The notes below the pieces were generated by a model. It saw only the letters and a list, made by a program, of their open reading frames with translations, did no database searches and had not been told where the DNA came from. A DNA stretch of 64,000 nt, taken from positions 744,001 through 808,000 of the forward strand of contig CANXME010002160.1 in NCBI GenBank assembly GCA_948144175.1, in the 5' to 3' direction. How positions within the stretch are numbered: the stretch's first letter is position 1; each line of letters starts with the position of its first letter. The DNA comes from Closterium sp. NIES-65. Its lineage: Eukaryota; Streptophyta; Zygnematophyceae; Desmidiales; Closteriaceae. The position numbers were made by a program, and so were the translations under genes. Shown here in pieces: positions 2,981 to 43,755 of the stretch.

Positions 2981-3064
2981 GAACTCACAGGGTCGTCAGG
3001 CACTCACAGGGACGTCAGGAACTCACAGGGACGTCAGGAACTCACAGGGACGTGAGGAACTCAA
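2981..3064. repeat. ~19-bp tandem repeat that copies an exon 5' splice site
   Basis: About four units of AACTCACAGGGACGTCAGG. On the minus strand each unit reads CCCT|GTGAGTT, the exact exon/intron junction of the LRR exon ending at 3046, so the donor site is reiterated downstream of the real one. Confidence 0.7.
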
Positions 3065-5612
3065 GGGCCCAAATGCCGCGAGGAACAACGCCATTGAAAT
3101 GGTTGTAAGAAACGTTGCTGTTGGCACAGGTAAACCACATGGGAAAGGATGGAGAAGGATAGGATGTTAAATCTGGCACAAAGAGCCATTAACTCAATCT
3201 TGACGACAAATGTTGTGGATAGAACCACTTACAGGGTTTCAAAAAAATAGGAGTTAGCTAAATCTGGTGGCAGGGGTCCCGTGAAATTGTTGTGTGAGAG
3301 ATTGCTGCACCCAATGGAGGGTATGCTTGGATGGAATGAAGGGAGACGACTGCACGCAAAAGAAAACAGGTCGTTGCCATGTGTATGCATGGCACAGGTA
3401 CATGATTGGGAGGGAAGACTTCTGTGAAACATGGTGAGATCAGGATCGCATTACATTTCTGCAATGTCTTCCTCATTCAAGAAAACGGAGGGGAAGGGTC
3501 CAGTGAAGCTGTTGTTAGACACGTCACCGTGGTGAAAAGGGCAAATGTAAAATAACAGAATGATATAAATGAGCTACCATACAATCTTAATTAGCCATTT
3601 CGTGGTTGAGGCTTGAAATCTCAGAAAACACAAGAGAGGAGACTCCATTGTCTCTACCGATCGCTGATCAATCGAGTGTTGCAACATGGAAATACAGAGA
3701 ACCAAACACAAGTTCATAGCCCAATGTTTTAAACCATATTGTTTAAAACAACTATGGGATCAACTCTTGCATTCAAGTTCCATAAGAAACGTACAGAACA
3801 TAGAACGTTTTGCCGGGATAGGACGGAAATGGTCCTGAGAAGTTGCATGATCCGGCATATCTTAGGTTTGGGGTATGCGAAGGAGAGTGGACAAGCCAGT
3901 AAAGGGAGGAAATGAAAGGAGACAACAGTAGACTTTGGGATGAGGCAAGTGAGGGACAACAGTAGACAGCTGTGACTTGAAAACAAGACTTCAAAACAAT
4001 CCTGGTTGAACCACTGCCGAGCCGATTCTTATAGATTCTGGAGTGCCACTGCTTACAGTATTATTCCAAGAAGCCACGATTGTGTGAAAAGCTTATCCAA
4101 GCCTTCTGACAGAGGATTGTGGCTGAGGTCTCTGTGGAGGGCATGAGAGGTGGTTAGCATGGCATGCACACACTGGCGATGAAGGCACAAGTGGAAAGGA
4201 AGGGGCATGCAATGGTGGATGGAAGGGCAGGACGAGCTTGGTCACTGTAATGGATGTGGGCGAGTGAGAGACATTCAAAGACAGCGATAGGAACTGGGTG
4301 TGGAAAAGAGAGAGGGTCAGAAAGGGAGTACAAGAGATCATATGAGACATTAAGCCTATTGTGATTCAGAAATGAGGGTGGGGCTTATCATGAGCAAGTA
4401 CATGCATATACATGCAAGTCCATGCTTGATAGGGCGGGTGGAGTGGAGGTGCACCATACGCTTTGGATGGACCCTATTGCATCAGCAATGTCAACAGCCG
4501 GCCTTGATGCCATAGTGAGCCAACGACTGACTGCAGCAGCTCAAGGACCAGCAGTGCTTGAAGCAGTTACTGGCGGCCATGGTGACTGGCATGCCCCCTT
4601 TTAACATGCCACCAGCCCGTCAATGTGGGTCAAATGATGCAGGCTAGGGAACGGGATAGTTGCTGCAACCTCCAATGGGCCACGTCTGTCTGAACCCCCT
4701 CGCCCTTACTTCAGAAGGCCCTTGGAGACAAGAATCAACCAATCTTGTGTTTGTTGTGGTAGTAGAGTGGAGGGCTCATTCTTCCTTGCCACCCATCTCC
4801 ATTTTCCTCAGGGCCTGCTTGCGTGGTGTATCCACTGGTTGGGCTTCAGTAGCAATTGTCCCTTCACTTGCGCATGACCTAGAGTAGAGGTAGCTGCTTC
4901 ACAACTCACATTTTATACACGGTATTGAAGAGGAAAGATAGCTCCGAGTCGTTGTGGCCCAGGTTGCTGAGAATAATTAGTTGGGAAAGAAATCAGTTAA
5001 CAGAATGCATTTCGGCACTCAGGGGTCACCATGTTCTGATGGATGCCACGGAAAGCTGATATGCAGAAAGCTTTCATATGATCTGGTAATGTAAAATTAG
5101 GATATTGCTAAATTGCTAAAATTAGGAACACAATGGAACGCAGGTGAGAAATGAGTATGCAGTGTTTCACGCAGCGATAGGCTCCAATCATAACTAGGAT
5201 TGAGCCTGTGAGTTGATGCGACTTGAGTCAACTAATGTGACTTGCAGTGCAAGTCATATATGAAAGTGAATCAAGCGCCTGAATCAAGTGGCTGGATCAA
5301 AACATGTAAGTCTTAACTGGTGCCCTTGCAAGCGAGGGAGTCGTGGAGCAGATGGGGCCAGTAAAAATGTTGCCACTGCGGTAATCTCACCAATATTGGA
5401 GACTAGGCGGTACAGCCGCTGGCACATGAGGGTTGACTCCTTGTGCATTCGTCGCCAAGAGAGTGGTGAATTCGTGTGCTGCCCGTCCCCTCTCCCCCTC
5501 TGCCCTGCTTTCTCCCTAACTCCCTGTCGCTAGCTCACGCCCCCGTGATATCAATCCACTCAAGACTCACATATCAGTAGGAATGATGGTGAGGTGATTG
5601 TGGGAGAGGTCT
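3046..5612 (-). CDS. LRR gene, minus strand: downstream block of seven exons
   Basis: Seven short LRR exons on the minus strand, each entered with one base and left with two bases of a codon (phase 2). In transcript order: 5571-5612 (DLSHNHLTIIPTD), 4910-4966 (NLGHNDSELSFLF), 4057-4131 (DLSHNPLSEGLDKL), 3795-3860 (CNFSGPFPSYPG), 3455-3526 (DVSNNSFTGPFPSVF), 3233-3304 (NLSHNNFTGPLPPDL), 3046-3117 (NVSYNHFNGVVPRGIW). Donors are GTGAGT, GTGAGT, GTAAGC, GTACGT, GTAATG, GTAAGT and GTGAGT. Acceptors are CAG, except AAG at 3860 and a non-canonical CGG before 3526. Junction codons are all Leu or Ile and there is no stop. It continues the gene that begins at 43755. No transmembrane or kinase segment is visible; the 3' end lies left of 3046 or is lost. 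Known: such LRRs form ligand-binding ectodomains of plant receptor-like proteins and kinases. Function here is unknown. Confidence 0.75.
4132..4909 (-). other. Intron of minus-strand LRR gene
   Basis: Sequence between the exons at 4057-4131 and 4910-4966. Open frames at 4422-4604 and 4660-4887 on the plus strand show no family motif. Nothing else was recognised. Confidence 0.5.
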
Positions 5613-5947: not shown

Positions 5948-6236
5948 TGTCACAACTTAAGCTTACAACTGATGCATTTGTGATCAGCTTGAAGCTCTTT
6001 AAGTACATCCAAGATGAGCAAGCGATAAATGGGGAGGGGAATCGGGGGCAATCTCTAAAATTGGGGGCAATCCCAACACAATCTCCAATTGGTGGGTTGG
6101 AGATTGCTTGGAGATGACATATGGGTTTGGTTGAGATGTAGGTGTACACCCAACCAAACACAAAGTGCATACTACACAATGCTAGGATATAGAAAGCGCA
6201 CAATACAATGTGTGAGACTGAGGGCCAACACTAACA
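5948..6236 (-). repeat. Copia C 3' LTR
   Basis: 289 bp, colinear with 26751-27040 with scattered substitutions. Both copies contain the block TAGGTGTACACCCAACCAA. Confidence 0.9.
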
Positions 6237-12035: not shown

Positions 12036-13241
12036 TGTCAACGGGAGTTGTTGTTGGCCACGTCCTCACTTGGGCGGACCCGACTACGTGGTCAAGTGTA
12101 CGAGAGATACACCCGACTTGCAGCAGTGGGCGACTTGGGAAGCCGGCGGCCGACTTCAACTGGTGGTCGGCGATGTGGCATGTCAACCTGAAAGTCGGCG
12201 CCGACTTGCAAGGTCACCGACTTGCAAGGTCACCGACTTGCAAGGTCACCGACTTGCAAGGTCGCCGACTTGCAAGGTCGCCGACTTGCAAGGTCGCCGA
12301 CTTGCAAGGTCGCCGACTTGCAAGGTCGCCGACTTGCAAGGTCGCCGACTTGCAAGGTCGCCGACTTGCAAGGTCGCCGACTTGCAAGGTCGCCGACTTG
12401 CAAGGTCGCCGACTTGCAAGGTCGCCGACTTGCAACGTCGCCGACTTGCAACGTCGCCGACTTGGGAGGTCGCCGACTTGGTGACGCCGACTTCTGGTAG
12501 CCGACTTGGGTGGTCGGCTGACGAATGGGCTGGTCGACGTGGAGCTGATCGACCAGGAGTGACGTCGGCCTGGAGCTGGTCGACCAGGGGTGTGGTCGAC
12601 CTGGTGAGGTCGAATGGAGGTGGCCGTCGACTTTGGAGGTCGACGGGCATATACAGGAGCACCTGGTCGACGTGGTTGCCCGGTCGACCAGGTTACCTGG
12701 GTGACGAGATTCTGCGGAGGAGTGCGACGGTCGCCCAGGCAAAGTTGGCGAGTCCGACCTCGGCGGTGGTATCCCGAGGTCGACATGGCGGATCAGGTGG
12801 AGTCACCAGCACGAGGATGACTTGGTGGGTGCGTTTTGCAGGTGACGAGGCTCAGCCCGCCAATCCTCTCCAAGCACCTGCGAAGCGGGTGCGCTGCTGT
12901 TCTGCGGGAGCAATGCTGGCACGCCGTCAACCTGCGACGTTGGCACGCCGTCGACCTTGCACTGCTGGAGCGCGGTCGACCAAGTCATGCTGGAACGCGG
13001 TCGACCATGCTGCGCTGGCAGTCGACCGACCTGAATGCTAGCTCTGATGTAGTCTTGCCATGCCAACTTCGTTGTACCATTGTTGTCAACCTTTCTTAGT
13101 GAAACCCTTGCCAACTTGCCCCGTGAACTAGCAAGCAGTGTGTGCACTAGGAAAACAACTAAGGACCAACGAACGCAAAGATCACACGAGCACCCGTGCC
13201 TAGCCCGTAGTCTAGATCCCGTTGTAGTTGTTATCTCCGCA
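12036..13241 (+). repeat. Copia A 5' LTR
   Basis: 1206 bp. Contains a 16-bp minisatellite and a dense run of palindromic GGTCGACC-like motifs (12530-12680). It is 48 bp longer than the 3' LTR, equal to three 16-bp units. Open frames across it (12070-13041 and others) come from the repeat and are not genes. Confidence 0.92.
12201..12475. repeat. 16-bp minisatellite inside copia A 5' LTR
   Basis: About 17 units of CCGACTTGCAAGGTCG with an A/G variant (GGTCACC or GGTCGCC) and later AACGTCG and GGAGGTCG variants. The same array is present with about 14 units in the 3' LTR. Confidence 0.93.
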
Positions 13242-13258
13242 TGGTGCGGTGAGCGTGG
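13242..13258 (+). other. Copia A primer-binding site
   Basis: TGGTGCGGTGAGCG directly after the LTR-terminal CA. TGG complements a tRNA CCA end. The cognate tRNA was not identified. Confidence 0.55.
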
Positions 13259-13619
13259 ACGGCACACGACTTACCTTTCAGTCAGGTCGACGTAGAGGTC
13301 ACATACCTAAGTTGTTCGTAGGCCGGCAGCCGTGCAGTCACTAGCGTGCGAGTAGGTGACGCCAAGGGAATGGAGACCCTGGAAGCACAGCTGGAGGACG
13401 CGAGGATACGCCATGGGGCCCAGGAGTATGGAACGATTCCTTGGGCGGTTGTGGAGGCTGGCATTCGCACCATATGGGCGACGTTGCACCCTTCTCAACC
13501 TGTGTCTCCTCGACCGGTGAACACAGAGGGCGGCGTCGACATGGGCGTCAACGTTGGTGGTGAACAGGTCGGCAGCAGTGCGGGAGGCACGTCGAGGTAG
13601 AGAGGTGTGATACACGCCG

Positions 13620-14546
13620 ATGAAGTCGGCGGCGTTCAGGCGCGAGGGATGCGGTCGACGGCGGCTGCAGGGCGACGTCGGAGGTCGACGAAGCGGATTG
13701 TCGCCGATGTCGGCGACCCAGGTGACGGCGGGGGGGATAGCACCGAGCTACGGCTACTTCAAGTTTACGCCGGACAAGATCTTGGTCACCCCGCCGTTCG
13801 TTGGTCCACAAGACATTCTCACCTGGAAGGAGGCCATCGAGCCTCAGCTGGAGATGGCCGGGCTGATTAGCTTTGCTCGAGGCACCGTGGCGACGCCGGA
13901 CGACCCCGACATGCATACTGAGTTTCGCGCCGTGCAGCTATTGACCTTCACGGCCATCTCGCGGTGCTGCTCGCCGGGCGTGCAGATCGCCTTGAAGTGG
14001 TGCCGAGAGTACCTCGACGCCAGCCACCAGGCGTGGCACTTCATCAAGTCGACCTACCAAGTCACCGACGACTTGTTCATCGCCCAGCTGGAGGGACAAC
14101 TGACGCACCAGCGTATGGGCGACGAGGAGACAGCGGCTGACTACTGCAATCGGGCCCGGCAAATACTCGCCACCATAAGGATGGCCGGCGCGCAATACTC
14201 GACGGCGTCGTACGTCACCCACATCATGCAGGGACTCTCGAGCAGCTACAACCTGCTGAAGCGGCTGTCCATGGCGCCGAGCACGAGGGCGACGCTCAAC
14301 GAGGACAACTTGACCTCGTACATCCTGCAGGACGAGGCGATGCAGGAGGCAGAGCGGTCACAGGAGCTCTTGGCGCAGGCCAACTTCGTCGCCCCAGCAA
14401 AGCAAGGAGGTCGACCGGGGCAGCGCGGACAGTCGGGCGGCAGTAGTAGCAGTGGGTGGAAGCCGGCCAAGGAGGTCGACAAGAAGAAGTCGACCAAGGA
14501 TAGCGGCCGAGGAGGAGGAGGTCGACGTCGCGAGAGCTGGCTGTGA
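13620..14546 (+). CDS. Copia A Gag
   Basis: A 308-codon frame with the copia-type Gag order: FKFTPDKILVTPPFVGPQD, LTWKEAIEPQLEMAGLI, HQAWHFIKSTYQV, AQLEGQLTHQRMGDEETAAD, ASYVTHIMQGLSSSYNLL. The natural start is probably the internal Met near 13710. It ends at TGA (14544-14546) in a basic Gly/Arg-rich tail, and the reading frame continues afterwards (GDPDHLSFECPDRSD). The stop therefore looks like a CGA-to-TGA change inside one Gag-Pol frame. Gag packages element RNA into cytoplasmic virus-like particles (family knowledge). Confidence 0.8.
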   Translation: MKSAAFRREGCGRRRLQGDVGGRRSGLSPMSATQVTAGGIAPSYGYFKFTPDKILVTPPFVGPQDILTWKEAIEPQLEMAGLISFARGTVATPDDPDMHTEFRAVQLLTFTAISRCCSPGVQIALKWCREYLDASHQAWHFIKSTYQVTDDLFIAQLEGQLTHQRMGDEETAADYCNRARQILATIRMAGAQYSTASYVTHIMQGLSSSYNLLKRLSMAPSTRATLNEDNLTSYILQDEAMQEAERSQELLAQANFVAPAKQGGRPGQRGQSGGSSSSGWKPAKEVDKKKSTKDSGRGGGGRRRESWL

Positions 14547-15242
14547 GGCGACCCCGACCACCTCTCCTTCGAGTGCCCCGACCGCAGTGACTCCGACGAC
14601 GACGACGCCAAGGGTGGTCGCGGGAGGTCAGACAGTCGTCATCCTCGAAGAGGAGGGAACAAGCCACGCAAGGAGACGAAGTCGACCAAGTCGACCTCGG
14701 CGAAGGACGCCGACTTCTCTGCTGGCCGCAAGGCGCGGGACGACAAGACGGTGTCGTGCTCGCTGGTCGGCGTCGTGGAGCCGACCGTCTCGCTGGCGCC
14801 GGAGGCCGGAGAGGACTTTCAGGCGGTGGCGGCACCTGTGCAGGCAAACCCGGCAGTGGTTCTACTCGACAGCGGCTGCTCCCATCACCTGATGGGGACG
14901 AAGAAAGTCTTCGTCGACCTGCAGCCGAGCGGCTCCATCAAGCACGTGCGCGGCTTCAATGGGGCGCTGCAGGACGTCCAGGGCCGCGGCACAGTCGCGC
15001 TGCAAGGGGAGGCCGGAAAGCAGGTGCTCATCCCCGACGTGCTGTACGTCCCGGGTGTGCGGGCAAACCTGTTGTCGTCCGGCCAGCTGAAGGAACATGG
15101 CGTGAAGCGGCAGGAGGACGGCGACGGGATGCCGCTTGTCTCAGCAACGGGAGAGGTGCTAGGTCAGGCGACGTACTCCGGGCGTGTCCTCTGCACCGAC
15201 TTGCGTCCCTGCTCAACGAGGTCGACGTCGACCACGCCGTAG
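14547..15242 (+). pseudogene. Copia A protease region
   Basis: The frame continues from Gag past its TGA. VVLLDSGCSHHLMG carries the aspartic-protease active site (DSG), followed by LIPDVLYVPGVRANLLSSGQ, the conserved protease/pre-integrase junction. It ends at TAG (15240-15242). Confidence 0.8.
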
Positions 15243-17610: not shown

Positions 17611-17784
17611 TAGGCATGATCATTAGGCCCGACCCGACCCGACCCGACCCGACCCGACTTGGGCGGGCCAGCCGGGTTCCGGGTCGGGTCGGGTCGGGTC
17701 GGAACTTCAAAAAATCCTGGCCCGACCCGGGTATCGGGTGCCGGGTCAGGCGTGACCCGCCCCCGGGTCGGGTCGGGTAGGGGC

Positions 17785-18200: not shown

Positions 18201-18501
18201 AACGAGAGAAGGAAGATCGGGCAGAATGGACTGCCACGAGCTGCGCTGGCAGCAGGTAAACTCGCGTCGGGAATTTTCGCCGTCGCGGAGGTTGCGCTCA
18301 CTGGAGCGCGGGAGATCGCGGACGCGTTCGCCACGGAGGGCAGCGTACCGCATGGATCTGGTGTCTGACGGACGTCGAGAATGAGGCGAGGACAATCTGC
18401 ACGCGGGATCGAAGCCCAGGCCTCACCCGTCCAGCAGCGGCCCTTGGAATCTGGCGCGTGGCCAGCAAGGAGAGGGTGGCAGGCGTCGCGACGACGCAGA
18501 T

Positions 18502-30315: not shown

Positions 30316-30444
30316 TGTCAGATTTATATGACATAGTTGCTGTAGGCTATAGTGGGGTAGCACATATGGGGTACAGGGTCTCTAGGGTTGTATTTGTACC
30401 CAGTCTTTCCTTAGTCATTCTCATTCCTGCTTACTCATTTCACA
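30316..30444 (+). repeat. Copia B 5' LTR
   Basis: 129 bp, TGTCAGATTT...ATTTCACA, identical to 37604-37732 as read. Confidence 0.95.
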
Positions 30445-31541
30445 TGGTATAGAGCGGGTTCCCTGTGGAACTCTGCCTAGGGCCCACCGAAGCGCGCCCC
30501 GAGGCGCGCTCAACTTTTTTTTTCCGCTCTCGAGCGACCCTCCGTGTCGCCTCCCTCCCACACGCGGCCCAGCCGCCCGCTAAGTCGCGGCCCCAGCCGC
30601 CCGCTACGACGCGCCCCCCAGCCGCCTGCTCGACGCGGCCCCCAGCCGCCTGCTCGACGCGGCCCTGCCGCCCGCTACGCCGCGGCCGCCGCCCACTACG
30701 ATCGCGGCCCCGGCCGCCTGCTACGACCGCGGCCCCAGCCGCCTGTTCGACCGCGGCCCCGCCGCCCGCTCCTGTCGCGGCCCCGGCTGCCTGCTCGCAC
30801 GGCCTCGCCGCCCGCTACTACCGCGGCCCCAGCCGCCTGCTCGACCGCGGCCCCCCCAGCCGCCTGTTCGACCGCGGCCCCGCTGCCCGCTACTGTCGCG
30901 GCCCCGGCCGCCTGCTAGCGCGGCCTCGCCGCCCTCTACTACTGCGGCCCCGGCCGCCTGCTTGCACGGCCCCGCCGCCTGCTACGACCGCGGCGCCAGC
31001 CGCCTGTTCGACCGCGGCCCCGCCGCCTACTACCGTAGCGGCCCCGGCCGTCTTCTCGCGCGGCCCCGCCGCCCACCTACTACCGCGGCCCCAGCCGCCT
31101 GCTCGCACGGCCCCGCCGCCTGCTACGACCGCGGCCTCCCAGCCCACTAGGCTGCGGCCGCCGCCTGCTCAACCGCGGCTTCGCCGCCCACTACGCATCG
31201 GCCCCGCCGTCCACCTGTAGCGACTGTGCGGGCGGACCTCTGAGCAGCTGTGCCGCCGAGCCGCCCGGGAGCCGAGCAGCCCTGCAGCCGAGCCGCCCGG
31301 GAGCCGAGCCGCCCTGCACCCGAGCCGCCCTGTCGCCGAGCCGCCCGGGAGCCGAGCCGCCCTGCCCCCGAGCTGCCCTGCCGCCGAGCCGCCCGGGAGC
31401 CGAGCCGCTGTGCACCCGAGCCGCCCGGTCGCCGAGCTGCCTTTCTGTCGAGCTACGCGACCTGCCCTGCCTGGTGAGCACAGTCCCACTGTCACTGCGT
31501 GCTCTCCCCCCTACTGCTTGCACTGCTTCACAGTCGTCGCC
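30445..31541 (+). other. Copia B primer-binding site and GC-rich leader
   Basis: Starts with TGGTATAGAGCGGG (primer-binding site). The rest is a degenerate GC-rich tandem region: CCGCGGCCCC-type units at 30590-31200, then GCCGAGCCGCCCGGGA-type units at 31250-31450. Frames open through it (30465-31220 and others) encode only Pro/Ala/Arg repeats. Likely an untranslated leader. Confidence 0.7.
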
Positions 31542-32036
31542 ATGGCTACCCCTAATGTCCTAGCTTTTGACGCTGAGGGTCGCGCCATTGATTTTGAGGT
31601 CTGGCTAGACGACCTGCAGCTGTTCTTACAGTGCGACAGAGCTGACGACCTTTCTCTCTTTGACCTCACCTCTGGCGCCTCTCCTGCTCCTGCTACTGAT
31701 GCTGATCCCGCTGTCCGCTCTAAGTGGGCCACCCGCGATGCTGCTGCACGTCTTGCTGTGCGTCGCCACCTCCCTACCTCTGAGCGTGCGCACTTCAGTC
31801 AGTACAAGAGTGCTCAGACCTTGTACGACGCTGTAGTTGCGCGCTACTCCTCCCCTGCCACTGCTGCACTGAGCCGTCTCATGCTTCCCTACCTCTTTCC
31901 TGACCTCTCTGCCTTTCCCACTGTCGCTGACCTCACTACGCATCTCCGCACTAGTGACACTCGCTACCGCGCCGCCCTTCCTGCTGAGTTCTGCGCTAAG
32001 AACCCCCCCCCATGTACATCGCTCTCTACTACGTAG
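31542..32036 (+). CDS. Copia B Gag, N-terminal frame
   Basis: Starts at an ATG in a favourable context (GCCATGG). Carries FDAEGRAIDFEVWLDDLQLF, ARLAVRRHLPTSERAHFSQY, KSAQTLYDAVVARYSSPATA and the Gag tail up to AEFCAKN. It reads into a run of nine C (32003-32011) and then terminates at 32036. The correct continuation lies in another frame immediately after the C run (IALYYVVARLPDSLRVV), so one base is missing or extra there. Confidence 0.85.
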   Translation: MATPNVLAFDAEGRAIDFEVWLDDLQLFLQCDRADDLSLFDLTSGASPAPATDADPAVRSKWATRDAAARLAVRRHLPTSERAHFSQYKSAQTLYDAVVARYSSPATAALSRLMLPYLFPDLSAFPTVADLTTHLRTSDTRYRAALPAEFCAKNPPPCTSLSTT

Positions 32037-33901
32037 TCGCGCGCCTCCCTGACTCCCTTCGAGTCGTCAGGGACCACTTTCTCGCAGTCTGCCCCACCAC
32101 GCTCACCGTCGACCTCCTCGAGAAGGCCCTCCTCGCAGCGAAGAAGAGCATAGTCGCTGTAGGTGCTTCTCGTGGTGACCCTCGCACCCCCATCTTTGTG
32201 GGGTGCTCTCCTTCCCCCTTGCTGCCCTCTGTTGCCTCTGCTGCTGCTGCCGACCTGCTTGGTCTTGAGTCGGTCGGCGCGGCGTCTGCCCCTAGTGGGA
32301 GACGTCGCTCCAGCAAGGGCAAGGGGGGCAAGGGCGCGGGTGGGGCTGGAGGGGGCGGTGGCGGTGGCGGCAGTGGCGGCGGAGGGAGTGGGGGTGGCGG
32401 CGGGACTAGTGGCGGGGGTGGTGGTGGTGGTGGCAGCAGCGGCGGAGACAGTAGTGGTGGTGCCAGCGGTGGTGGTGGAGGCAGCGGCGGAGGTGGAGGC
32501 GGCGGAGGTGGAGGCGGTGGAGGCGGCGGCGGAGGAGGCAGTGGTGGTGGAGGGGGTGGAGCTGGTCGGGGTGGTACCAAGCAGCGTAGCGGCGGTGGTG
32601 GTGGCCAGCGCTCGCAGCGGCAGCAGCAGCAGCGCTCTCGGGACATCCCTTCGCCTCAGCAGCTTCGTGAGTGGTACGCTGGGCGTCAGAGGGGTGGGGG
32701 TACTGGTCCCTGCACCTACGTTCTTCGTTCCGGCGACCGCGCGGGTGAGCAGTGTGAGGGTGCCCACGCCACCCAGCGCTGCTTTGGCCGCTTGACGGAC
32801 GCCTGGCGTCAGCAGTTCCCTGGGGCTAGTGAGATCCCTCGCTGGGATGAGCTTCTCAGGGCTGGTGTAGCGATCTTTGATCTTGATTTTGATGCTATCC
32901 TTACTGCTATGTATGTTGTGGATTATAGTGAGGAGAATGAGGGTTACCGTTGTTTCCAGCCCGACCCGGGCATTGGTACTGCTGCGCTAGGTGCTTGTGA
33001 GGCTGCTGCTCTAGGTGCCAGTGCGTCTGCGCTCTCAGGTACTGGTGAGGCTGCGCTCTCAGGTACTGCGTCGTCCTCGTCCTCCCTCACTTTCACACTT
33101 GACTCCGGAGCTTCTCGCTCCTTCTTTCGAGACCGCACTACCCTTACGCCGCTCGGCCGGCCGGTTGCAGTCTCCCTTGCTGACCCCTCTGGAGGTCCTG
33201 TCCTGTCTCACTTCTCCACTGTCCTCCCGTGTCCGGCTGCCCCTTCGGGCACCCTGTCTGGTCTGTACCTTCCCTCGTTCTCCACGAACTTGGTGAGTGG
33301 AGCGGACCTGCAGGATGGGGGTGTTCACCAGTTCACTCCTGCGAGTCAGCGGGTGACCCACTGCACGGAGGCACGCACAGGCCGACACCTGGCCACGTTC
33401 TCGCGTCGGCCGGGGTCGAGTCTCTACACCCGGACCGTTGAGTCTCCTCCTGTCCCTGCGTCTGGTCAGGTGGCTGCGTCGGGTCAGGTCCTTGCTGCTG
33501 CGTCCCGGTCAGGTCCTGAGTCTGCCCCCTGTTCTTGTCGCCTCCTGTCTCACGAGACTCTCCTGTGGCACCACCGTCTTGGCCACCCCTCCTTGCCCCG
33601 TCTTCGGAGCATGGCTTCCCGTGTCCTTGTCTCTGGTCTTCCCCAGTCTCTCCCTCCTCTCCCCTCCGGGCCAGGACCTTCCTGTGTCCCCTGTGTCGAG
33701 GGTCGCCTCCGGGCTACTCCTCACTCCTCCCACTTCCCCCCGACAGAGGCTCCCCTGCAGACGCTTCACATGGATGTATGGGGCCCAGCCCCGTCCGTGG
33801 GCAGGGTTACGAGCGCTACTTCCTGTTGGTGGTTGACGACTACTCGCGTTACATCACAGTCCTCCCCTTGCGCAGCAAGGGTGAGGTCACTGAGGTACTG
33901 A
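32012..33901 (+). CDS. Copia B Gag C-terminus, protease and pre-integrase frame
   Basis: Continues Gag (LRVVRDHFLAVCPTTLTVDL), then a ~75-residue Gly-rich tract (32340-32580). A Cys/His cluster follows (GPCTYVLRSGDRAGEQCEGA then HATQRCFGRL) in place of a classic zinc knuckle. Next come the protease motif LTFTLDSGASRSFFRD and the pre-integrase zinc region LLWHHRLGHPSLPRLRSMAS with CVPCVEGRL. Productive homology ends at HMDVWGPAPSVG (near 33805). After that the frame is wrong (a base is missing near GTGGGCAGGG) and runs to 33901. Confidence 0.85.
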   Translation: MYIALYYVVARLPDSLRVVRDHFLAVCPTTLTVDLLEKALLAAKKSIVAVGASRGDPRTPIFVGCSPSPLLPSVASAAAADLLGLESVGAASAPSGRRRSSKGKGGKGAGGAGGGGGGGGSGGGGSGGGGGTSGGGGGGGGSSGGDSSGGASGGGGGSGGGGGGGGGGGGGGGGGGSGGGGGGAGRGGTKQRSGGGGGQRSQRQQQQRSRDIPSPQQLREWYAGRQRGGGTGPCTYVLRSGDRAGEQCEGAHATQRCFGRLTDAWRQQFPGASEIPRWDELLRAGVAIFDLDFDAILTAMYVVDYSEENEGYRCFQPDPGIGTAALGACEAAALGASASALSGTGEAALSGTASSSSSLTFTLDSGASRSFFRDRTTLTPLGRPVAVSLADPSGGPVLSHFSTVLPCPAAPSGTLSGLYLPSFSTNLVSGADLQDGGVHQFTPASQRVTHCTEARTGRHLATFSRRPGSSLYTRTVESPPVPASGQVAASGQVLAAASRSGPESAPCSCRLLSHETLLWHHRLGHPSLPRLRSMASRVLVSGLPQSLPPLPSGPGPSCVPCVEGRLRATPHSSHFPPTEAPLQTLHMDVWGPAPSVGRVTSATSCWWLTTTRVTSQSSPCAARVRSLRY

Positions 33902-35040
33902 TCGACTGGATCCGCGAGGCTCGTCTCCAGCTCAGGAGGAGCTTCGGCTCAAACTTTCCTGTTCTGCGTCTGCACTCGGACAGAGGCGGAGAGTTCTCTT
34001 CTCGACTTCTGCGAGACTACTGTCGTGCACGGGGGATCCGCCAGACCTTCACGCTTCCGGACTCACTACAGCAAAATGGGATTGCTGAGCGCCGCATTGG
34101 CATGGTCATGGATGTCGCTCGTACGTCCATGATGCATGCGGCTGCCCCCCATTTTCTGTGGCCGTTTGCAGTGAGGTACGCGGCGCATCAGCTCAACCTT
34201 CACCCCCGGGTCTCTCGGCCTGCGATGTCCCCAGCCTTGCTGTGGACGGGGAAGGTTGGCGATGCGTCTGTGTTCCGTGTCTGGGGATCTCGGGCGTTTG
34301 TCCGCGACTTGTCTGCGGACAAGCTGTCCCCTCGTGCTGCTCCCTGTGTCTTCCTTGGCTTCCCCACTGACGCCCCAGGGTGGCAGTTTTACCACCCCTC
34401 CTCTCGTCGTGTTCTGTCCTCCCAGGACGTCACGTTCGACGAGTCAGTCCCCTTCTACCGTCTCTTCCCCTACCGCACTCCTTCCCTCCCCCCTCCCCCG
34501 GACTTCCTTGTGCCGGTTCCCCCCCCGGTAGACCCCCTCCCCCCTCAGGTTCCTGCCCCCTCAGGTGTGTCCCAGGTAGACGCCGTTGACCCGGTCGAGG
34601 TTACTGGTGACTCTGGTGCTGCTGCGGGTGCTGAGCCTGGGGGTGCTTACTCTGGGGGTGCTGTGCGCGGGGGTGCTGAGCCTGGGGGTGCTACTGCTGG
34701 GGGTGCCGGGCCTGAGGGTGCTACTGCGGAGGGTGCGGAGCCTGGGGGTGCTGAGCCGGGGGGTGCTGTGCCTGGGGGTGCGGGGTCTGGGGGTGCTGGG
34801 TCGGGAGCTACTGAGCCTGGAGGTGCTGAGCTGGGAGCTGCTGAGCCTGGGGGTGCTGCGTCTGGAGCTGCTGAGCCTGGGGTTTCTCCTGCTGCTGCGT
34901 CTCGCCGCTGGAGACGTGCTGCTGAGTCTGGAGGTGCTGCTGGAGCTGGAGCTGGAGCTTCTTCGACCGTCGTGGGTGCGGGTGCTGCCGGTCCCGGAGC
35001 TGCTGGACCTGCGGGTCCTCCTGGAGCTGGAGCTGCTAGG
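33806..35040 (+). CDS. Copia B integrase frame
   Basis: Open frame continuing integrase after the 33805 frameshift: YERYFLLVVDDYSRYITVLP, LRLHSDRGGEFSSRLLRDYC, RQTFTLPDSLQQNGIAERRI (conserved Glu), AAPHFLWPFAVRYAAHQLNL, LLWTGKVGDASVFRVWGSRA and FYHPSSRRVLSSQDVTFDES. After the Pro-rich spacer, a 15-bp repeat (34620-34880; units like GGTGCTGAGCCTGGG) encodes Pro-Gly-Gly-Ala-Glu repeats. The frame leaves the pol frame near 35036-35045. Confidence 0.85.
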
Positions 35041-37397
35041 GCGCTGGTGCTGAACCTACTGCTGTTGGTCCTGCCACTGGAGGTGTGGGTGGCGCTGGTG
35101 CTGTCGCTGAGGGTGCTGGTGCAGACCCTGCTGCGTCTGGAGCTGCCGCGCGGCCTCGGCCATACTTCGTTCCGCTCTTGCAGCAGGTTCTTGGTCTTTC
35201 TCCTCCGGTAGAGGGTCCACCACCTGTCCAGTCGCAGTCCCTGCTGGAGCCTTCCTCTCCACTGCCTGCTCCCTCTCCTTACACTGGTCCTACTGGAGGT
35301 CCTGCTGAGCGTCGTGAGCCTGCGTCTCGTCCCGCGTCGCCTGTTCGTGCTGCTCGCGCTAGTGGTCGCAGTTCGCGTCAGCGTCCTCCTCCTGTCCCTG
35401 GCACGCACCGGATGTCTTTGCGTCCGTCCACTGCTCCTCTGCGTGCCCCTTTGCCTTCTCCTCCTGAGTCCTCTCTTCCTGCGCTTGCCGACCCTGAGTC
35501 GGACTCTCTTCGTGCTGCCAGTCCTACTGTCACGCGTCTGCTTGCTACTGTCGTCACTGACCCCTCTTTTGAGTCCACTGCTGCGTCTGCTCTAGTCGCT
35601 GAGCTCGTCGCCTTTGCTGCTTGCTGCCGTCTCGACTACGCTGCTAGTCTTGTTGCTGAGTCTGCGTCTGTCTGTCCTCCGTCCGTTGGGGGTGAGTGTG
35701 CTCTTAGCACGGACGTCCTAGAGGACAGGCAGGAGGAGTTACAGTGTCTAGCGGCTGCTTCACCTCATCTCGCGTCTGTACTGCTTGCCCCTGAGGGAGA
35801 CCCGGATGCACTAGACATCCCGACTCCGCGTTCTTACGCGGAGGCCGTAGAGGGTCCCTACTCCTCTCAGTGGCAGGCAGCTATGGATGCAGAGATGGCT
35901 TCCTGGAAGTCCACAGGCACCTACGTTGACGCGGTTCCCCCTCCTGGGGCGAACATCGTCAGTGGCATGTGGATCTTCAGGGTGAAGCGGCCGCCGGGCT
36001 CTCCACCTGTCTTCAAGGCACGGTACGTTGCTCGTGGCTTCAGTCAGCGGCAGGGAGTTGACTACTTTCAGACCTTCTCTCCCACCCCGAAGATGACTAC
36101 TCTTCGGGTGCTGCTGCACATAGCCGCTCAGCGCGACTACGAGCTTCACTCTCTCGACTTCAGCACTGCGTTCTTGCAGGGTAGCCTGCACGAGGAGATC
36201 TGGCTTCGCCGTCCACCTGGCTTCACTGGGACTTTCCCTCCTGGCACCCAGTGGAGCCTCCGACGGCCAGTCTACGGTCTCCGCCAGGCACCGCGTGAGT
36301 GGCACGACACACTGAGGACTACGCTTGCGGCTCTTGGGTTTGCTCCTTCTACTGCTGACCCGTCGCTGTTTCTTCGCACCGACACTTCCCTGCCGCCGTT
36401 CTACATCCTCGTGTACGTCGACGACTTGGTCTTTGCCACAGCAGACACTGCTGGACTCGCCTACGTGAAGTCCGAGCTGCTGAAGAGACACACGTGCACA
36501 GACCTGGGTGAACTGCGCAGCTACCTTGGCTTGCAGATCACTCGGGACAGAGCACGCCGCACCATTACCTTGACTCAGTCACACATGGTGCAGCAGGTCC
36601 TTCAGCGCTTCGGCTTCACGTACTCCTCGCCTCAGGCCACTCCTCTGCCTACTCGCCACTCACTCTCAGCTCTGCCTTCGGATGAGTCCGTAGAGTCGAG
36701 TGGTCCGTATGCAGAGCTTGTTGGCTGCCTCATGTACCTGATGACCTGCACACGACCTGACCTTGCATACCCTCTGAGCATTCTTGCACGCTATGTTGCT
36801 CCTGGGAGACACAGACCGGAGCACATGGCTGCAGCGAAGAGGGTATTGCGCTACCTGTGCAGTACGTCGGGCATGGGGCTAGTGCTTGGAGGGCGGAGTC
36901 CAGTGGTCCTTACCGGCCACGCGGACGCTTCTTGGGCTGACGACCAGGCTACGCAGCGGTCGTCACAGGGTTACACCTTCAGCCTTGGTTCCGGCTCTGT
37001 CTCGTGGCGGTCTACTCGCTCGTCTTCGGTTCTCGGCTCCAGTTGTGAGGCTGAGATCTACGCCGGGGCCATGGCTGCACAGGAGCTTCGCTGGCTCACC
37101 TACCTGCTGACTGACCTTGGAGAGCCGCCTCGTTCTCCTCCAGTGCTGTACGTAGACAACAAGGCTATGCTGGCCTTGTGTCGAGAGCAGCGCTTGGAGC
37201 ACAGAACGAAGCACATTGCTCTCCGCTACTTCCTTGCTCGTGAGCTGCAGCAGCGTGGTCAGTTGCGACTTGCGTACGTGGCCTCTGAGGCCAACACTGC
37301 TGATGTGTTCACCAAGGCACTCGCGCCTTGTGACCATCAGCGCTTTTGCACCCAGCTGGGTCTTGTGCCTGTCTTGCCTCACTTGCTCTCCTCTTGA
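35041..37397 (+). CDS. Copia B reverse transcriptase and RNase H frame
   Basis: An open frame of about 780 codons. It starts in the Gly/Ala linker, then has SYAEAVEGPYSSQWQAAMDA, FKARYVARGFSQRQGVDYFQ, FSTAFLQGSLHEEIWLRRPP, LRRPVYGLRQAPREWHDTLR, FYILVYVDDLVFATADTAG (YVDD motif), RSYLGLQITRDRARRTITLT, YLMTCTRPDLAYPLSILARY, then RNase H: LTGHADASWADDQATQRSSQ, SSSVLGSSCEAEIYAGAMAA, LYVDNKAMLALCREQ and YVASEANTADVFTKALAPCD. No stop inside. The enzyme copies element RNA to DNA in the cytoplasmic particle. Confidence 0.93.
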
Positions 37398-37603
37398 CTT
37401 CACTTGTACTGTGACATATATATATGCCTGCTCTTGTTTGTCTAGTTTTATATATATGTCTGTACTCCTGCATGTGAACTGGCCTCTGGCCCTACTCTTG
37501 TGCTCGGACTGTGTGGTGACTTTGTGATCCACCCTGAGCTTGCTTTGCTTTGCTTGAGTGGTCTTGTGACCCCTTGTTCTCCCCCACTTTGCCTATGGGG
37601 GTG

Positions 37604-37732
37604 TGTCAGATTTATATGACATAGTTGCTGTAGGCTATAGTGGGGTAGCACATATGGGGTACAGGGTCTCTAGGGTTGTATTTGTACCCAGTCTTTCCTT
37701 AGTCATTCTCATTCCTGCTTACTCATTTCACA
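37604..37732 (+). repeat. Copia B 3' LTR
   Basis: 129 bp, identical to the 5' LTR as read. Preceded by the G-rich polypurine-like TATGGGGGTG. Confidence 0.95.
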
Positions 37733-38039: not shown

Positions 38040-41000
38040 AGGTCAGCAAGGGCAATGAGGTCGGAGATGGTGGAGGGGATCGAGCCAGTGAAGCCATTCA
38101 GACCGGCCCGCCTGGAGGTGGAAAGGGAGGGGAGGGGAGATAGGAGGGGAGGGCGCAGTGACGGGTGGCGGGCAAAGAAGAGGGCAATGCAATGCAGACC
38201 ACTGAGCAATCTCAACAATGTGAAGAACGGACGGGCGGGGGAAAGCATTGGTGGCTGGTGGGCAATGTATGGCATGAATGTTTGTGGATGGTCGCCTGAG
38301 GCTGAGCATCTCAGACCAACACGGTGAGCTCAGCAGCTCGAGGTGTCAACCCAAGGCTGTGCGCTCATGACGCGATAAACGGCTCACAGAGTCTCCAGCC
38401 CTGTGAGCGCCATCCGTTCAACCGGGAACAAAGCAGAGCGGTGGACATTAAAATTGCCGGTGACATCCCTGCACGGCGGTCAAGGACAGGGGGATGGGGG
38501 ACGCTCCGATCGCTTGAAAGGCACAGCAGGCGAGCAGTGCGAAATCAATGTGCATCTCGACTCTATCCCTCTAGCCATCATGCACGGCCCTGGCCTGCCA
38601 TAGTCCATGCGTGGCACAGGGCAAAGGAGCATGGTACGGACCGGCAAGGACGATGCAGAGAGAAGCACTCCAATCAAATGAGGTAAAGCTTACTCACCTG
38701 GGGAGCTCTTCACGTGACATACCAAGCACTAGGAAGAAATGCTTTGGCAGCAAGCAAGTCAAGCAGAGAGTGAATGCGCATGTGGCAAGACTGCAGCGAG
38801 GTGCAGGTGGGTGGTGCGGGAAGCATTGATGAGAGGACACAGGCAGGGTGGGATGAGGGGGTTGTGGTGGCACGGCACTCACAGTGTAATGAGGTTGGGG
38901 AGCGATGTGATCCATCGTGGTAAGTGGGTGACGGAGAGGAACCTCAGGTCACTGCGAGAGAGGGAAGGAAGAGAGGAGGGAGAGAGAGTGTGGCACTGCC
39001 AAGACCCACTGCATGTTCAACCATGGAGATGACTAATGGTGGCTGATGGTCGGGGCTTGTTAGCGGTGGAAGCAATGGGAAACGCATCCGATTTCGCAAC
39101 GTATGGGCTGCTGAAAGAGGCTTGTGTTTGCTCCTTTTTGGGAGAGGTGAATTTGTTGGATTTGATTTGGTCATATGATACACTTATGCGATACAATGAT
39201 TCAACAAACAATCAAATGCCAAGAGTGTAAAGGCTGTGCTTGGGGGAGTACTTCTTAACCATTAACCACCATGCACAACCCATGGGAGAAAACAATACAG
39301 CAGCGTGCTCCCGACCAGGAAAAGGGGGCTTACATGGCTGTGATGTGAGTGAATTAAGGGCAGAGAGAGAGGAAGGGAGCTCTCCAGCCGTCAGGTTGAG
39401 AGTCATGAGAGCGCTGAGGGGAAGTGATTGAGTATGACGGGCAAAGAGGCGTGAGTGCAAGAGGGAGGATGAAAGACAATGGTGAAGTGGACTCGGGAAT
39501 GCTGGGGAGGAGAGAGAGAATGTGATTCCTGAGGTTCCCTGAACAATGTAGCTGGATTGTTTACTGAGCAATGAAGTGGACAAGGAGTGTTCAGAGCACG
39601 AAAAGAAGGTGGACAGGGATGAGAGAATGCAGGGGAAAGCGGGCAGGGATGAGTGAGGGGTAAGGAGAAGAGGGGCATACAGGTGCTGGAGGCGAGTGAG
39701 TGGGGCGAGAGAGGAGAGGTCTGCCATGGGGCCTTGCAGCACAGGAGTCTTATAGGTAGCTGTAATGGAGAGAACGCTGGTGTGAGGGAGGGCACACAGC
39801 AAAGCCAAGGGAGCACAGGGGAGGTCTGCCATGGGGCCTTGCAGCACAGGGGGCTTCATGTTATCCGTAATGGAGTGAATGCTGTGAGAGAGGGCGACAG
39901 CAAGGGGGAGAGAGGGCGACAGCAAGGGGGAGAGAGGGCGACAGCAAGGGGGAGAGAGGGCGACAGCAAGGGGGAGAGAGGGCGACAGCAAGGGGGAGAG
40001 AGGGCGACAGCAAGGGGGAGAGAGGGCGACAGCAAGGGGGAGAGAGGGCGACAGCAAGGGGGAGAGAGGGCGACAGCAAGGGGGAGAGAGGGCGACAGCA
40101 AGGGGGAGAGAGGGCGACAGCAAGGGGGAGAGAGGGCGACAGCAAGGGGGAGAGAGGGCGACAGCAAGGGGGAGAGAGGGCGACAGCAAGGGGGAGAGAG
40201 GGCGACAGCAAGGGGGAGAGAGGGCGACAGCAAGGGGGAGAGAGGGCGACAGCAAGGGGGAGAGAGGGCGACAGCAAGGGGGAGAGAGGGCGACAGCAAG
40301 GGGGAGAGAGGGCGACAGCAAGGGGGAGAGAGGGCGACAGCAAGGGGGAGAGAGGGCGACAGCAAGGGGGAGAGAGGGCGACAGCAAGGGGGAGAGAGGG
40401 CGACAGCAAGGGGGAGAGAGGGCGACGGCAAGGGGGAGAGAGGGCGACGGCAAGGGGGAGAGAGGGCGACAGCAAGGGGGAGAGAGGGCGACAGCAAGGG
40501 GGAGAGAGGGCGACAGCAAGGGGGAGAGAGGGCGACGGCAAGGGGGAGAGAGGGCGACAGCAAGGGGGAGAGAGGGCGACAGCAAGGGGGAGAGAGGGCG
40601 ACAGCAAGGGGGAGAGAGGGCGACAGCAAGGGGGAGAGAGGGCGACGGCAAGGGGGAGAGAGGGCGACAGCAAGGGGGAGAGAGGGCGACAGCAAGGGGG
40701 AGAGAGGGCGACAGCAAGGGGGAGAGAGGGCGACACCAAGGGGGAGAGAGGGCGACAGCAAGGGGGAGAGAGGGCGACAGCAAGGGGGAGGGAGGAGGAG
40801 GAGCGTGATGATTGTTTACCGTGGATGTGTTGGCACACAGCGTGAAACGGCACCACAGCAGGTTGGACCACACAGCTGGCATTGGCATATTAGCTACTCT
40901 GCTGCACTGCCCTGCTACGCATGGCTGCACACACTGATAGCCTTCCCTGCAGCTTCTGTATCTACGTGACAATGGCAAGTCTGTTGCAAGGATGTCATTC

Positions 41001-43755
41001 CTCCTGCAACGCATGCATCATGGCATGTACAATAGTTTGCACCAAGGCATGTACAATGGCATGCACCATGGCATGTACAATAGCATGCATCATGGCATGT
41101 ACAATAGCATGCATCATGGCATGAACAATAGCATGCATCATGGCATGTACAATAGCATGCACCATGGCATGTACAATAGCATGCATCATGGCATGTACAA
41201 TAGCATGCATCATGGCATGTACAATAGTTTGCACCATGGCATGTACAATAGCATGCACCATGGCATGTACAATAGCATGCACCATGGCATGTACAATAGC
41301 ATGCATCATGGCATGTACAATAGCATGCATCATGGCATGTACAATAGCATGCACCATGGCATGTACAGTAGCATGCATCATGGCATGAACAATAGCATGC
41401 ACCATGGCATGTACAGTAGCATGCATCATGGCATGTACAATAGCATGCCTCATGGCATGTACAATAGCATGCACCATGGCATGTACAATAGCATGCACCA
41501 TGGCATGTACAATAGTATGCACCATGGCATGTACAATAGCATGCACCATGGCATGTACAATAGCATGCACCATGCACCATGCACCATAGCATAGCATGCA
41601 GCAGCAGAAATCTAGACCCCATCATTCTTACTCTGGTGGCTTCTTGGTAACGAAATAAGCATCGACGACGATCAAATCAGGGTAGCCATTGTACTGAGAC
41701 CTTCCAATGGACCTGCATGGGGAGGCAGTGCAGAGGGTGGGAAAGGAAGCCAGGAAGGGAAAATACATGCACGCATCAGATTGTTGCGAACAGGAAGAAA
41801 GAGGAGCAGCAGTTGGGATGTGGAGCGAGCAATGTGCAACATGTCAACCCGGGATGCAAGCGATGCACGTGGCAGCAGGGCGGTGCAAAGAGGAGGATGA
41901 GGAGGAGGTTCAGGAAAGAGAGGATGGGAGGTACAGGTACTAGGTGAGTGCAGTGAGGCGTCTGAAGGTGGATGGGAGACTTCCAGTGAGGCCAGCAATG
42001 TCCGTTAGGTCACTGGCATGGCATGTGATGGAGATGACAAGGGGTTCACAAACAGATGAGGCTGAGTCTCCAACACTCCTAAACTGAAACGGAAGAGGTG
42101 AGTCGCTTCGAGCGGCTACTCGTTCTGAAATTAAACAAAACGGACAAACAAATTACAGGCATCCTTGTAATCTGAGCTGCCCCCCTCGCGAGCAAGACGA
42201 TGCGAAAATAAACCGAGCTGAGGCAGCAACTGCGAGTCATGGAAATGATGTCAGAGGTCCACTGGTGATCCCCGATCGATCCTAGGGAAGGGTTACAGGC
42301 ACGTTTGCCTGGGGGGTTATGGGCGCACTGACCCGCTACTGAAACAAGCCCTTTTATCCCAATGGTCTAGTGGTTGGGATTCTGAGATGGTATCCAGAGC
42401 GAAGGTCTCGGGTTCGAATCCCGGTGTATGCACTTCGGGCATCCCAGTGCGGGGGGGTGTCAGAGGTCCACTGGTGATCCCCGATCGATCCTAGGGAAGG
42501 GTTACAGGCACGTTTGCCTGGGGGGTTATGGGCGCACTGACCCGCTACTGAAACAAGCCCTTTTATCCCAATGGTCTAGTGGTTGGGATTCTGAGAAATG
42601 AAACCCCCTCTTACAGGTGCTGCAGATTCGTGGCATTGCCAATGGATTCAGGAATGGATCCACTTAATTCGGTGGCGTGCAAATCACTGTCATGGCATTG
42701 GCACGTGATTAAGGCAGGCAGGCCGACTTTGCATGAGAGAGAGTTAACACGGTGGGGACCGAATGAGTTAGAGTAAGGCATAGAGGGGGCTGGAAGGGCA
42801 GTTCAAGAGAGAGGAAACAGCAAGAGAGGTGAGTGAGACGGCACAAGGGTAGAGCAGAACAAAGGTGCGTACACAATTTCCAAGTGAGGCAACTGGCCAA
42901 GAAACTCCAGGCTTCCAGTGAAGGCACACCAAGGCATTTCCCTGCAGAGAGCCATGCAAGTGGGAAGGGTGGCTTTGAAAGAGGCGAACAACAAGATCAG
43001 TGAGCTTAGAAATCGTGCAAGGTGTCGCAGACATCGAAAAAAATCGCCAGCCAACGTTCTTTAGTCGTGGTTCAGTGCAACCTCAAGCACTCAATCTGAT
43101 GGCCCTTCAAGTACCCCTGCGGCCATTTCCTTACAAATGAACTGCAGCACTGACAGTTTCCGAAGCGCTTTGAGGGCTGTGATTGCTGACGGAACGACTC
43201 CATTTGGTATAGAGCGATCTTCCGGCTTCGACGTTTTGAACCTGCATCAATCAAAACCTTGACAAGTAAGTGGCTGGTCGCTCGGATGCCTGCCTGGTGG
43301 CATTGCAGCAGCAAGATCAGCAATGCCTGATCTGCACACCATGCAACGGCGTGCATGGTCATTTGAAAATAGGCAAGTTCACTCTACTATCTTTCCTGGT
43401 TGGTCCCACAACACAGCCACTCCGCCTTTGCAGGGCTGCTTTCTTCCATCATCCATCATGCCATCATCCATCATGCCATCATGCCATCATGCCATCATGC
43501 CAAACAAGCGTTCCTTCTGTGCAATGCTCTTCCATTCCCCTCTCTCCCCATCCTCACTTCCTCCTTCCTCCCTGCCTCGTGTCTCGTACTCATCCCAGAG
43601 CACACATGGAGGAGCTCACAGGGCGGTCACCATGCCGCGTGTGTTACATTCCAAATGACTGAACGAGTTGTCCTCCCATTCATCACAGAATACATCAGTC
43701 GAGCTGTACTGGGGCCATACACCCCATTCGATATTCAGGGCCAGCAGCGCTTGTA
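38040..43755 (-). CDS. LRR gene, minus strand: upstream block (LRR N-terminal domain plus nine LRR exons)
   Basis: Exons in transcript order: 43620-43755 (136 nt; LRR N-terminal cap QALLALNIEWGVW, CDEW, ECNTRGMVTA), 43155-43241 (GVVPSAITALKALRK), 42873-42941 (CAFTGSLEFLGQLPHLEI), 42615-42686 (ELSGSIPESIGNATNLQH), 41941-42012 (GLTGSLPSTFRRLTALT), 41632-41712 (IGRSQYNGYPDLIVVDAY), 39681-39776 ([20 protein letters not shown]), 38883-38951 (LRFLSVTHLPRWITSLPNLI), 38388-38468 (DVTGNFNVHRSALFPVERMA), 38040-38111 (GLNGFTGSIPSTISDLIALA). All have AG acceptors, GT donors and phase-2 borders; the cap exon starts in phase 1. Junction codons are Leu, Val or Asp, except 41941|41712, where TA+G makes a stop. 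No first exon with a signal peptide was found. Exon lengths and sequences parallel the plus-strand gene at 44857-49009. Likely a receptor-type LRR gene, possibly now a pseudogene. Confidence 0.8.
39334..39413 (-). pseudogene. Degenerate LRR exon with lost donor
   Basis: CAG acceptor at 39414-39416, then phase-2 LRR sequence ALMTLNLTAGELPSSLSALN. Where the donor should be (after 39348) the sequence is CACATC instead of GT. The next GTAAGC (before 39334) leaves the wrong phase. Skipping it keeps the gene frame intact. Confidence 0.55.
39810..39865 (-). repeat. Partial duplicate of the LRR exon 39681-39776
   Basis: Minus strand encodes [11 protein letters not shown], the same as the centre of the exon just downstream, with matching flanks. 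It has no usable splice sites. Confidence 0.65.
39885..40791. repeat. 22-bp minisatellite (about 41 units) in LRR-gene intron
   Basis: Tandem units starting CGACAGCAAGGG followed by GGAGAGAGGG, almost perfect. Variants: CGACGGC in four scattered units and CGACACC in one. The period is not a multiple of three and lacks stops, which creates long spurious frames on both strands. Confidence 0.96.
41011..41580. repeat. 24-bp minisatellite (about 24 units) in the same LRR-gene intron
   Basis: Units starting CATGGCATGTACAATAGC with ATGCAC or ATGCAT ends. Occasional TACAGTAGC and GAACAATAGC variants. Open on both strands because the period is a multiple of three. Confidence 0.95.
42249..42596 (+). 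repeat. 209-bp direct repeat with tRNA-like pol III boxes (possible SINE)
   Basis: A full unit (42249-42457) is followed directly by a truncated second copy (42458-42596), identical over 139 bp as read. The full unit ends with a tRNA-like segment (about 42352-42430) carrying a good A box TGGTCTAGTGG (42363-42373) and a perfect B box GGTTCGAATCC (42411-42421). The anticodon arm and acceptor stem do not fold properly, so it is not called as a tRNA gene. It lies in an intron of the minus-strand LRR gene. Confidence 0.7.
43436..43502. repeat. CCATCATG-type microsatellite in LRR-gene intron
   Basis: Short tandem CATCATCCATCATGC and CATCATGC units between the first two minus-strand LRR exons. Confidence 0.8.

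Follow-up and report, generated by a model that had tools for sequence, protein, structure and literature searches.

A receptor-like leucine-rich repeat gene of Closterium sp. NIES-65 with two transposon-filled introns, probably inactivated recently

The window analysed here is a 64,000-nt stretch of the genome of Closterium sp. NIES-65 (assembly GCA_948144175.1, contig CANXME010002160.1, positions 744,001–808,000), and coordinates below are positions within it. Its minus strand carries 19 exons, running from 43755 to 3046, that probably constitute a single leucine-rich repeat (LRR) receptor-like gene, inflated by transposable elements (TEs) and recently inactivated. Head to head with this gene lies a plus-strand paralogue (44857–49009), the orthologue of protein P0079, with a signal-peptide exon (44857–45187) and LRR exons up to 49009. 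An earlier note on this DNA had recognised the minus-strand LRR exons and counted 17 of them; the exons proved real, and their number is 19. Twenty candidates were picked by reading, their borders were then checked by script, and E1–E6 and E8–E20 were retained after comparison with relatives. The E7 candidate (41003–40820, 184 nt) was rejected since orthologues pass from E6 directly to E8, and the initial E8 border at 39759 was discarded after comparison with orthologues. Splice borders were AG/GT throughout the 19 exons, with the acceptor of E18 (GG) as the sole exception, and 17 of the 19 were symmetric (length divisible by three), the exceptions being the presumed cap exon E1 and E9.

The first exon retained, E1 (43620–43755), encodes a putative LRR N-terminal cap (QALLALNIEW..CDEW..C..GMVTA) in which 42 of 44 residues are identical to P0009, the orthologous protein of strain Naga37s-1. 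It is followed by the LRR exons E2 (43155–43241, 87 nt, phase 2-2), E3 (42873–42941, 69 nt), E4 (42615–42686, 72 nt) and E5 (41941–42012), the last with an in-frame TAG at its 3′ end, by the non-LRR island exon E6 (41632–41712, 81 nt), and by the chimeric exon E8 (39681–39881), which measures 201 nt from its native acceptor at 39881. The LRR exon E9 (39334–39413) is 80 nt long where 75 nt are expected, a frameshift. E10 (38883–38951), E11 (38388–38468) and E12 (38040–38111) are LRR exons, as is E13 (27239–27304, 66 nt), which is flanked by both TE-filled introns. E14 (5571–5612) is a short LRR exon of 42 nt, at which the orthologous proteins hold no extra residue and are thus equally short. 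Downstream of it lie E15 (4910–4966, 57 nt), E16 (4057–4131, 75 nt; all 25 residues shared with P0009), E17 (3795–3860, 66 nt) and the LRR exons E18 (3455–3526), E19 (3233–3304) and E20 (3046–3117). Introns 12 and 13 of NIES-65 measure 10.7 and 21.6 kb, respectively, the E6–E8 intron 1750 bp, and the remaining introns 115 to 778 bp. Two minisatellites, at 39886–40795 (22 bp x 41) and 41011–41574 (24 bp x 23.5), occupy most of the E6–E8 intron; the E4–E5 intron holds two identical 139-nt direct repeats (42249–42387 and 42458–42596); and a 19-bp tandem repeat at 2980–3067 overlaps the 3′ end and donor of E20, with the splice donor multiplied.

A start exon was sought on the minus strand at 43756–44856 with the N-termini of eight relatives, and P0009 residues 477–499, which follow E20, were sought in 1–3045 by tblastn; neither search gave a convincing match (best E 0.06 and 0.22, respectively). 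P0009 and P0010, the latter from strain Yama58-4, likewise start at E1, and the signal-peptide exon of the minus-strand gene may lie elsewhere. The 3′ end of the gene lies beyond the window.

Comparison with these two strains revealed that P0009 and P0010 are each one predicted protein, collinear with E1–E20 across both TE-intron junctions; they start at the same E1 residue and are 89% identical overall to the NIES-65 read-through. A protein search scored on E10–E20 found P0009 at 93% across the full 248 residues and, at 90%, P0010. When P0009 was compared by tblastn with bases 1–49080, 17 minus-strand matches at E<1e-4 were obtained, while 2 more fell on the plus-strand paralogue. P0009 residues 1–476 mapped in order onto the minus-strand exons, 18 of the 19 being matched at E<1e-4 and E14 at only E=0.002. 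None of seven control sequences (complement, reverse and five shuffles) gave a P0009 tblastn match at E<1e-4; the complement and reverse controls showed 2 matches each, at E 0.5–0.7. An AlphaFold model of P0009 formed a single continuous LRR solenoid through both junctions (mean predicted local distance difference test score 84.1, predicted template modelling (TM) score 0.85), weak at residues 154–166 and 339–352. The earlier note would have taken an orthologue in which the exons at 3–6 kb belong to a different gene as a refutation; as far as predicted proteins can tell, the opposite is the case, all exons being in one protein. The claim of the earlier note that E1–E20 belong to one gene is thus supported at the level of sequence and predicted proteins, on collinear orthologues instead of on splice phase.

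The argument from phase itself did not survive. The earlier note had reasoned that unrelated LRR fragments would match phase only one time in three per junction; since 17 of the 19 exons are symmetric and arbitrary joins mostly give Leu, Ile, Val or Asp, this null had to be rejected. Both junctions that it had singled out, 38040|27304 and 27239|5612, are exact, and 17 of the 18 junctions do read as codons for one of these four residues, although E9|E10 (ATT) among them is out of frame; the sole exception, E5|E6, reads TAG, a stop. However, arbitrary pairs of minus-strand donors and acceptors gave such a codon in 255 of 307 cases, with 9 stops, and pairs joining the two head-to-head genes did so in 108 of 126 cases (plus-gene donor and minus-gene acceptor, 0 stops) and 87 of 108 cases (minus-gene donor and plus-gene acceptor, 4 stops), E9 being excluded as donor and E1 as acceptor throughout. 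Phase and rebuilt codons therefore carry almost no information, because nearly any such LRR exon joins any other in frame, and phase agreement between LRR exons is no evidence for a single gene. By the same token, neither phase nor junction codons can distinguish one gene from two or three unrelated LRR remnants in a row that seem continuous through their common phase. We regard such a row of remnants as highly improbable, since in two other strains a single predicted protein carries all exons in unchanged order, the short E14 and E15 included; this contradicts it unless both proteins are mis-joined predictions.

The enlargement of introns 12 and 13 can be traced to individual elements, whose flanks and target duplications were read by eye. 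Intron 13 contains copia A (5948–27040, minus strand, the gene's own orientation), with long terminal repeats (LTRs) at 5948–6236 and 26751–27040 that differ at 33 of 289 sites (88.6% identical, Kimura two-parameter (K2P) distance 0.125) and are the most diverged among the dated elements. It is flanked by GGGCG and GGGGG, with one mismatch, and contains a gag domain that exceeds the cut-off; rve and SH3 fall slightly short of theirs, and the open reading frames (ORFs) scanned gave no RVT_2 match. Nested in copia A is copia C (12036–26363, plus strand), flanked by GGGAT on both sides, the LTRs of which differ at 18 of 735 sites with a minisatellite excluded (97.6% identical, 0.025), and which shows gag, SH3 and RVT_2 domains and no rve match. 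Nested in copia C in turn is element D (17783–23270), with 415-nt direct repeats at its ends that differ at 9 of 415 sites (97.8%, 0.022) and a zinc-knuckle ORF at 18385–20715; no target duplication was recognised at its ends.

Intron 12 contains a hAT-type element on the plus strand, with tentative ends at 27434 and 37781, whose ORF at 27723–30050 matches the Pfam families DUF659 (3.4e-32) and Dimer_Tnp_hAT (6.5e-10) and is therefore assigned to a hAT transposase. The candidate terminal inverted repeat, 24 nt with 19 matches, scores 23, where 200 shuffles reach 25, and no convincing 8-bp target duplication was seen at the ends. Copia B (30316–37732, plus strand), nested in this element, has LTRs identical over 129 sites, a perfect target duplication (TACGG on both sides), and gag-pre-integrase, rve, SH3 and RVT_2 domains, and is very young. 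All three copia elements have TG..CA LTRs and a 5-bp target duplication, in the case of A with one mismatch. The TE nests that the earlier note had placed in the introns were thus confirmed, although they amount to five elements at most three deep and not to five levels.

Without the TEs, intron 12 would measure about 387 bp, the hAT ends being tentative, and intron 13 about 533 bp; the published mean for NIES-65, of which the haploid phase was sequenced (876-Mb assembly, 62.6% repeats), is 485.4 bp (PMC10407611, table 1); according to the same paper, the raw data are deposited in ENA as PRJEB57781. Two introns of ordinary size, which are presumably still small in the other strains, would thus have grown to 10.7 and 21.6 kb. 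In intron 13, copia A would have inserted first, followed by C into A and then D into C, and in intron 12 copia B would have jumped very recently into a hAT-type element. Because the insertions sit within introns, they may have left the spliced message as it was, and the nests would in the past have been spliced out. A further copia fragment with SH3 and RVT_2 domains lies downstream of E20 (1–2371, plus strand; over parts of its length it is 74% similar to copia C and, likewise, 77% similar to copia B), so that the next intron may be TE-filled too.

Exon E8 bears the mark of the neighbouring gene. Its first part resembles the orthologues, and its second part is a copy of the plus-strand gene's E8, intron flanks included, with the frame kept; another acceptor, at 39776, likewise gives an open E8, of 96 nt. 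The 181-nt tract (39631–39811, minus strand) is 93% complementary to 48879–49059 of the plus-strand gene, and no other comparable match between the two head-to-head genes was found among the matches listed. Judged from these alignments, the inverted tract is an ectopic gene conversion, which, by comparison with the orthologues, would have run from the plus-strand to the minus-strand gene.

To what extent the exons were kept after the oldest insertion was estimated with a neutral clock set at half of the copia A LTR divergence, 0.062 substitutions per site since insertion, a value that stems from a single short LTR pair, may be affected by LTR hypermutation and leaves the order of insertion and strain split open; the other strains were compared at protein level only. 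Simulation gave neutral expectations of 17.7 amino-acid changes in 145 codons (E14–E20) and 33.3 in 281 codons (E1–E13 without E8), which after scaling became 18.6 for 152 residues and 34.2 for 289, respectively. On the NIES-65 side, E14–E20 showed 3 changes in 152 residues (1 private, 2 at which all three strains differ; P about 1e-5), whereas E1–E13 without E8 showed 24 in 289 (22 private, 2 all-differ; P 0.04, and P 0.02 for private changes alone). These counts suggest that E14–E20 were spared well after intron 13 grew and E1–E13 weakly so. The earlier note had held that the exons stayed readable: 16 of the 19 did, E5 with its stop, E9 with its frameshift and E18 with its lost acceptor being the exceptions, which suggests that readability outlasted the oldest insertion by far, but not until the present.

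The scarcity of changes in E14–E20 may reflect either selection or recent exchange between strains. In the latter case the locus would be a patchwork, with E14–E20 exchanged between strain lineages by a crossover in the TE-filled intron 13 and the apparent sparing being due to recent shared ancestry. Between NIES-65 and Naga37s-1, 46 of 293 residues are different in E1–E12 (16%) but 3 of 152 in E14–E20 (2%); with the converted E8 left out, the E1–E12 count becomes 42 of 267 (P 2e-6 either way). Measured against the paralogue P0011, in contrast, the two blocks are similarly diverged (78 of 250 residues and 56 of 151, P 0.23). Moreover, hybrid ancestry and recombination of sequences of different origin have been published for another strain, NIES-4550 (PMC10407611). 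However, the two remaining pairs of strains also show somewhat greater similarity in E14–E20 (P 0.05 and 0.09), so that constraint may explain part of the difference, and the comparison was made at protein level only. We consider an exchange of this kind possible, though on the whole unlikely; it would be compatible with one TE-inflated and inactivated gene.

The present copy of the minus-strand gene carries three lesions. E5 ends in ACCTAGTACCT|GTACCT, compared with ACCTTCCT|GTACCC in the plus-strand paralogue and TYL in the orthologues, and its TAG is in frame with either of two adjacent GT donors. E9 has 80 nt against the 75 nt implied by the orthologous protein, a surplus of 5 nt that shifts the frame at the end of the exon, and the acceptor of E18 is lost (GG). 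Interior stops were absent from E2–E20; the frame over all exons is nevertheless interrupted at E5 and E9 and by the loss of the E18 acceptor. These lesions indicate that the NIES-65 copy was most likely inactivated recently, after it had, as it seems, remained functional for a considerable time beyond the TE invasion.

Several observations weigh against one TE-inflated gene that was conserved and then recently lost. P0009 and P0010 are 'partial' predictions, seen as protein, and their 3′ ends beyond E20 differ from each other. No close NIES-65 record of the minus-strand gene was present among the matches listed (120 of 1100, candidate lengths 0.55–1.75x the query), where the NIES-65 proteins P0023, P0032 and P0044 are just 37–41% identical, and the P0009 and P0010 clusters are one sequence each, with no NIES-65 member hidden inside. 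This last point is weak, because the genome-guided transcripts of the published NIES-65 pipeline had an intron limit of 10 kb (PMC10407611), if the deposit stems from that pipeline. Substitution stops were expected in numbers of just 0.7 (E14–E20) and 1.2 (E1–E13 without E8), so that their absence says little. Private changes numbered 27 in NIES-65 against 21 and 18 in the other two strains, which is not significantly faster (P 0.38), and at sites conserved in paralogues they numbered 7 in NIES-65, 6 in Naga37s-1 and 2 in Yama58-4; with no clear excess, function must have been lost recently or not at all. Finally, joining the exons without E5 and E9 yields an open frame of 463 codons.

This open frame, and that of 439 codons when E18 is omitted as well, would also fit a gene that still works, in which skipping of E5, E9 and E18, all of them exons of a single LRR, gives a shorter in-frame LRR protein. 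All three lesions lie at or near a splice junction, E14–E20 have changed little since copia A inserted, and paralogues vary by whole repeats, such as the extra one, inferred to be one exon, between E12 and E13 in P0011, P0012 and P0013. On the other hand, a sample of three lesions is too small to test their position, the E9 lesion does not force skipping of E9, E21 onward lies outside the window, and in the 1.1 kb upstream none of eight queries revealed a start exon comparable to those of the relatives (lowest E 0.06). Continued function through exon skipping is accordingly doubtful, and recent inactivation of the single TE-inflated gene is preferred.

The family of the gene was assessed by domain and structure comparison. 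Pfam LRR_1 matched E10–E20 at 3.3e-21 and E1–E5 with 21.1 bits (cut-off 20.6), LRR_14 reached 28.2 bits on E1–E5, under its cut-off of 40, and repeats of the plant type (LxxNxLxGxIP) were found. E1 can be aligned with the equivalent region of its relatives, but no LRRNT match at E<=0.1 was listed for it. The PDB matches to the P0009 model (50 listed of 983) are by title plant LRR receptor ectodomains, with TM-scores of 0.25–0.68 relative to the query. No Pfam kinase was found in the five relatives scanned (P0009, P0010, P0013, P0032 and P0079), and in P0079 a signal peptide, the LRRs and a cysteine-rich cap can be read by eye, as can a membrane span followed by a short tail. The relatives of the minus-strand gene belong to the family of P0079, and we infer that it encodes a plant-type extracellular LRR protein, one of the receptor-like proteins.

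For the plus-strand paralogue, a deposited NIES-65 protein exists: 310 of the 311 residues of P0003 are found on the plus strand, in eight pieces that match exactly and in order, the last one ending at 49076, which identifies the DNA as that of NIES-65. The exons of P0003 are bounded differently from the conserved ones of P0079, and it stops just short of a satellite; this model of the gene looks mis-predicted. The satellite, of 17 bp (consensus AAGCACACTGGCTTGGG, plus strand), fills 49081–64000 with about 878 copies at 96% matches and begins 71 bp past the last visible exon; it probably lies within an intron, because P0079 continues beyond that exon.

Compared as protein records, P0009 and P0010 resemble the NIES-65 gene in their collinear E1–E20, 89% identity and equally short E14 and E15, and differ in having neither stop nor frameshift and an E8 that is native and not derived from the paralogue. 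Plant LRR receptor-like proteins (P0079, and solved ectodomains such as those of RXEG1, HAESA, ERL1 and MIK2) are similar in the cap-like E1 with its cysteines, the LxGxIP repeats and the solenoid fold, whereas for the minus-strand gene the window includes neither a signal peptide nor the C-terminal cap or the membrane span. As regards exon structure, one LRR per 72-bp phase 2 exon is the arrangement of plant SERK genes. The same is described for brown algal ROCO genes, and gonadotrophin receptors are cited alongside them as having one LRR per exon (PMC11378527). All three resemble the present gene in their symmetric phase 2 exons of about one repeat apiece but belong to other protein families, and here the symmetric exons span 42 to 87 nt, E8 apart. 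No paper joining one-LRR-per-exon structure, intron phase and receptor-like kinase was found in the literature searched, nor any that names Naga37s-1. In seed plants such as conifers and grapevine, a few long, repeat-filled introns have been described in otherwise normal genes (PMC4108047), and the present gene agrees with this pattern; in contrast, Closterium is a unicellular zygnematophyte with a published mean intron of 485 bp, and here the nest is dated by LTRs and constraint was measured afterwards. A TE-inflated LRR gene is thus known in kind, and its history is in this case unusually clear and datable.

Annotation with a 10-kb intron limit could miss or split genes like this one. A further idea, more doubtful yet than the skipping of damaged exons on which it builds, is that a modular receptor gene may outlive both TE invasion and lesions by dropping whole repeats, and may still work across introns of 10 and 21 kb. 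If this were true, symmetric LRR cassette exons would turn splice-site damage such as that at E5, E9 and E18 into variation in repeat number, with the reading frame kept.

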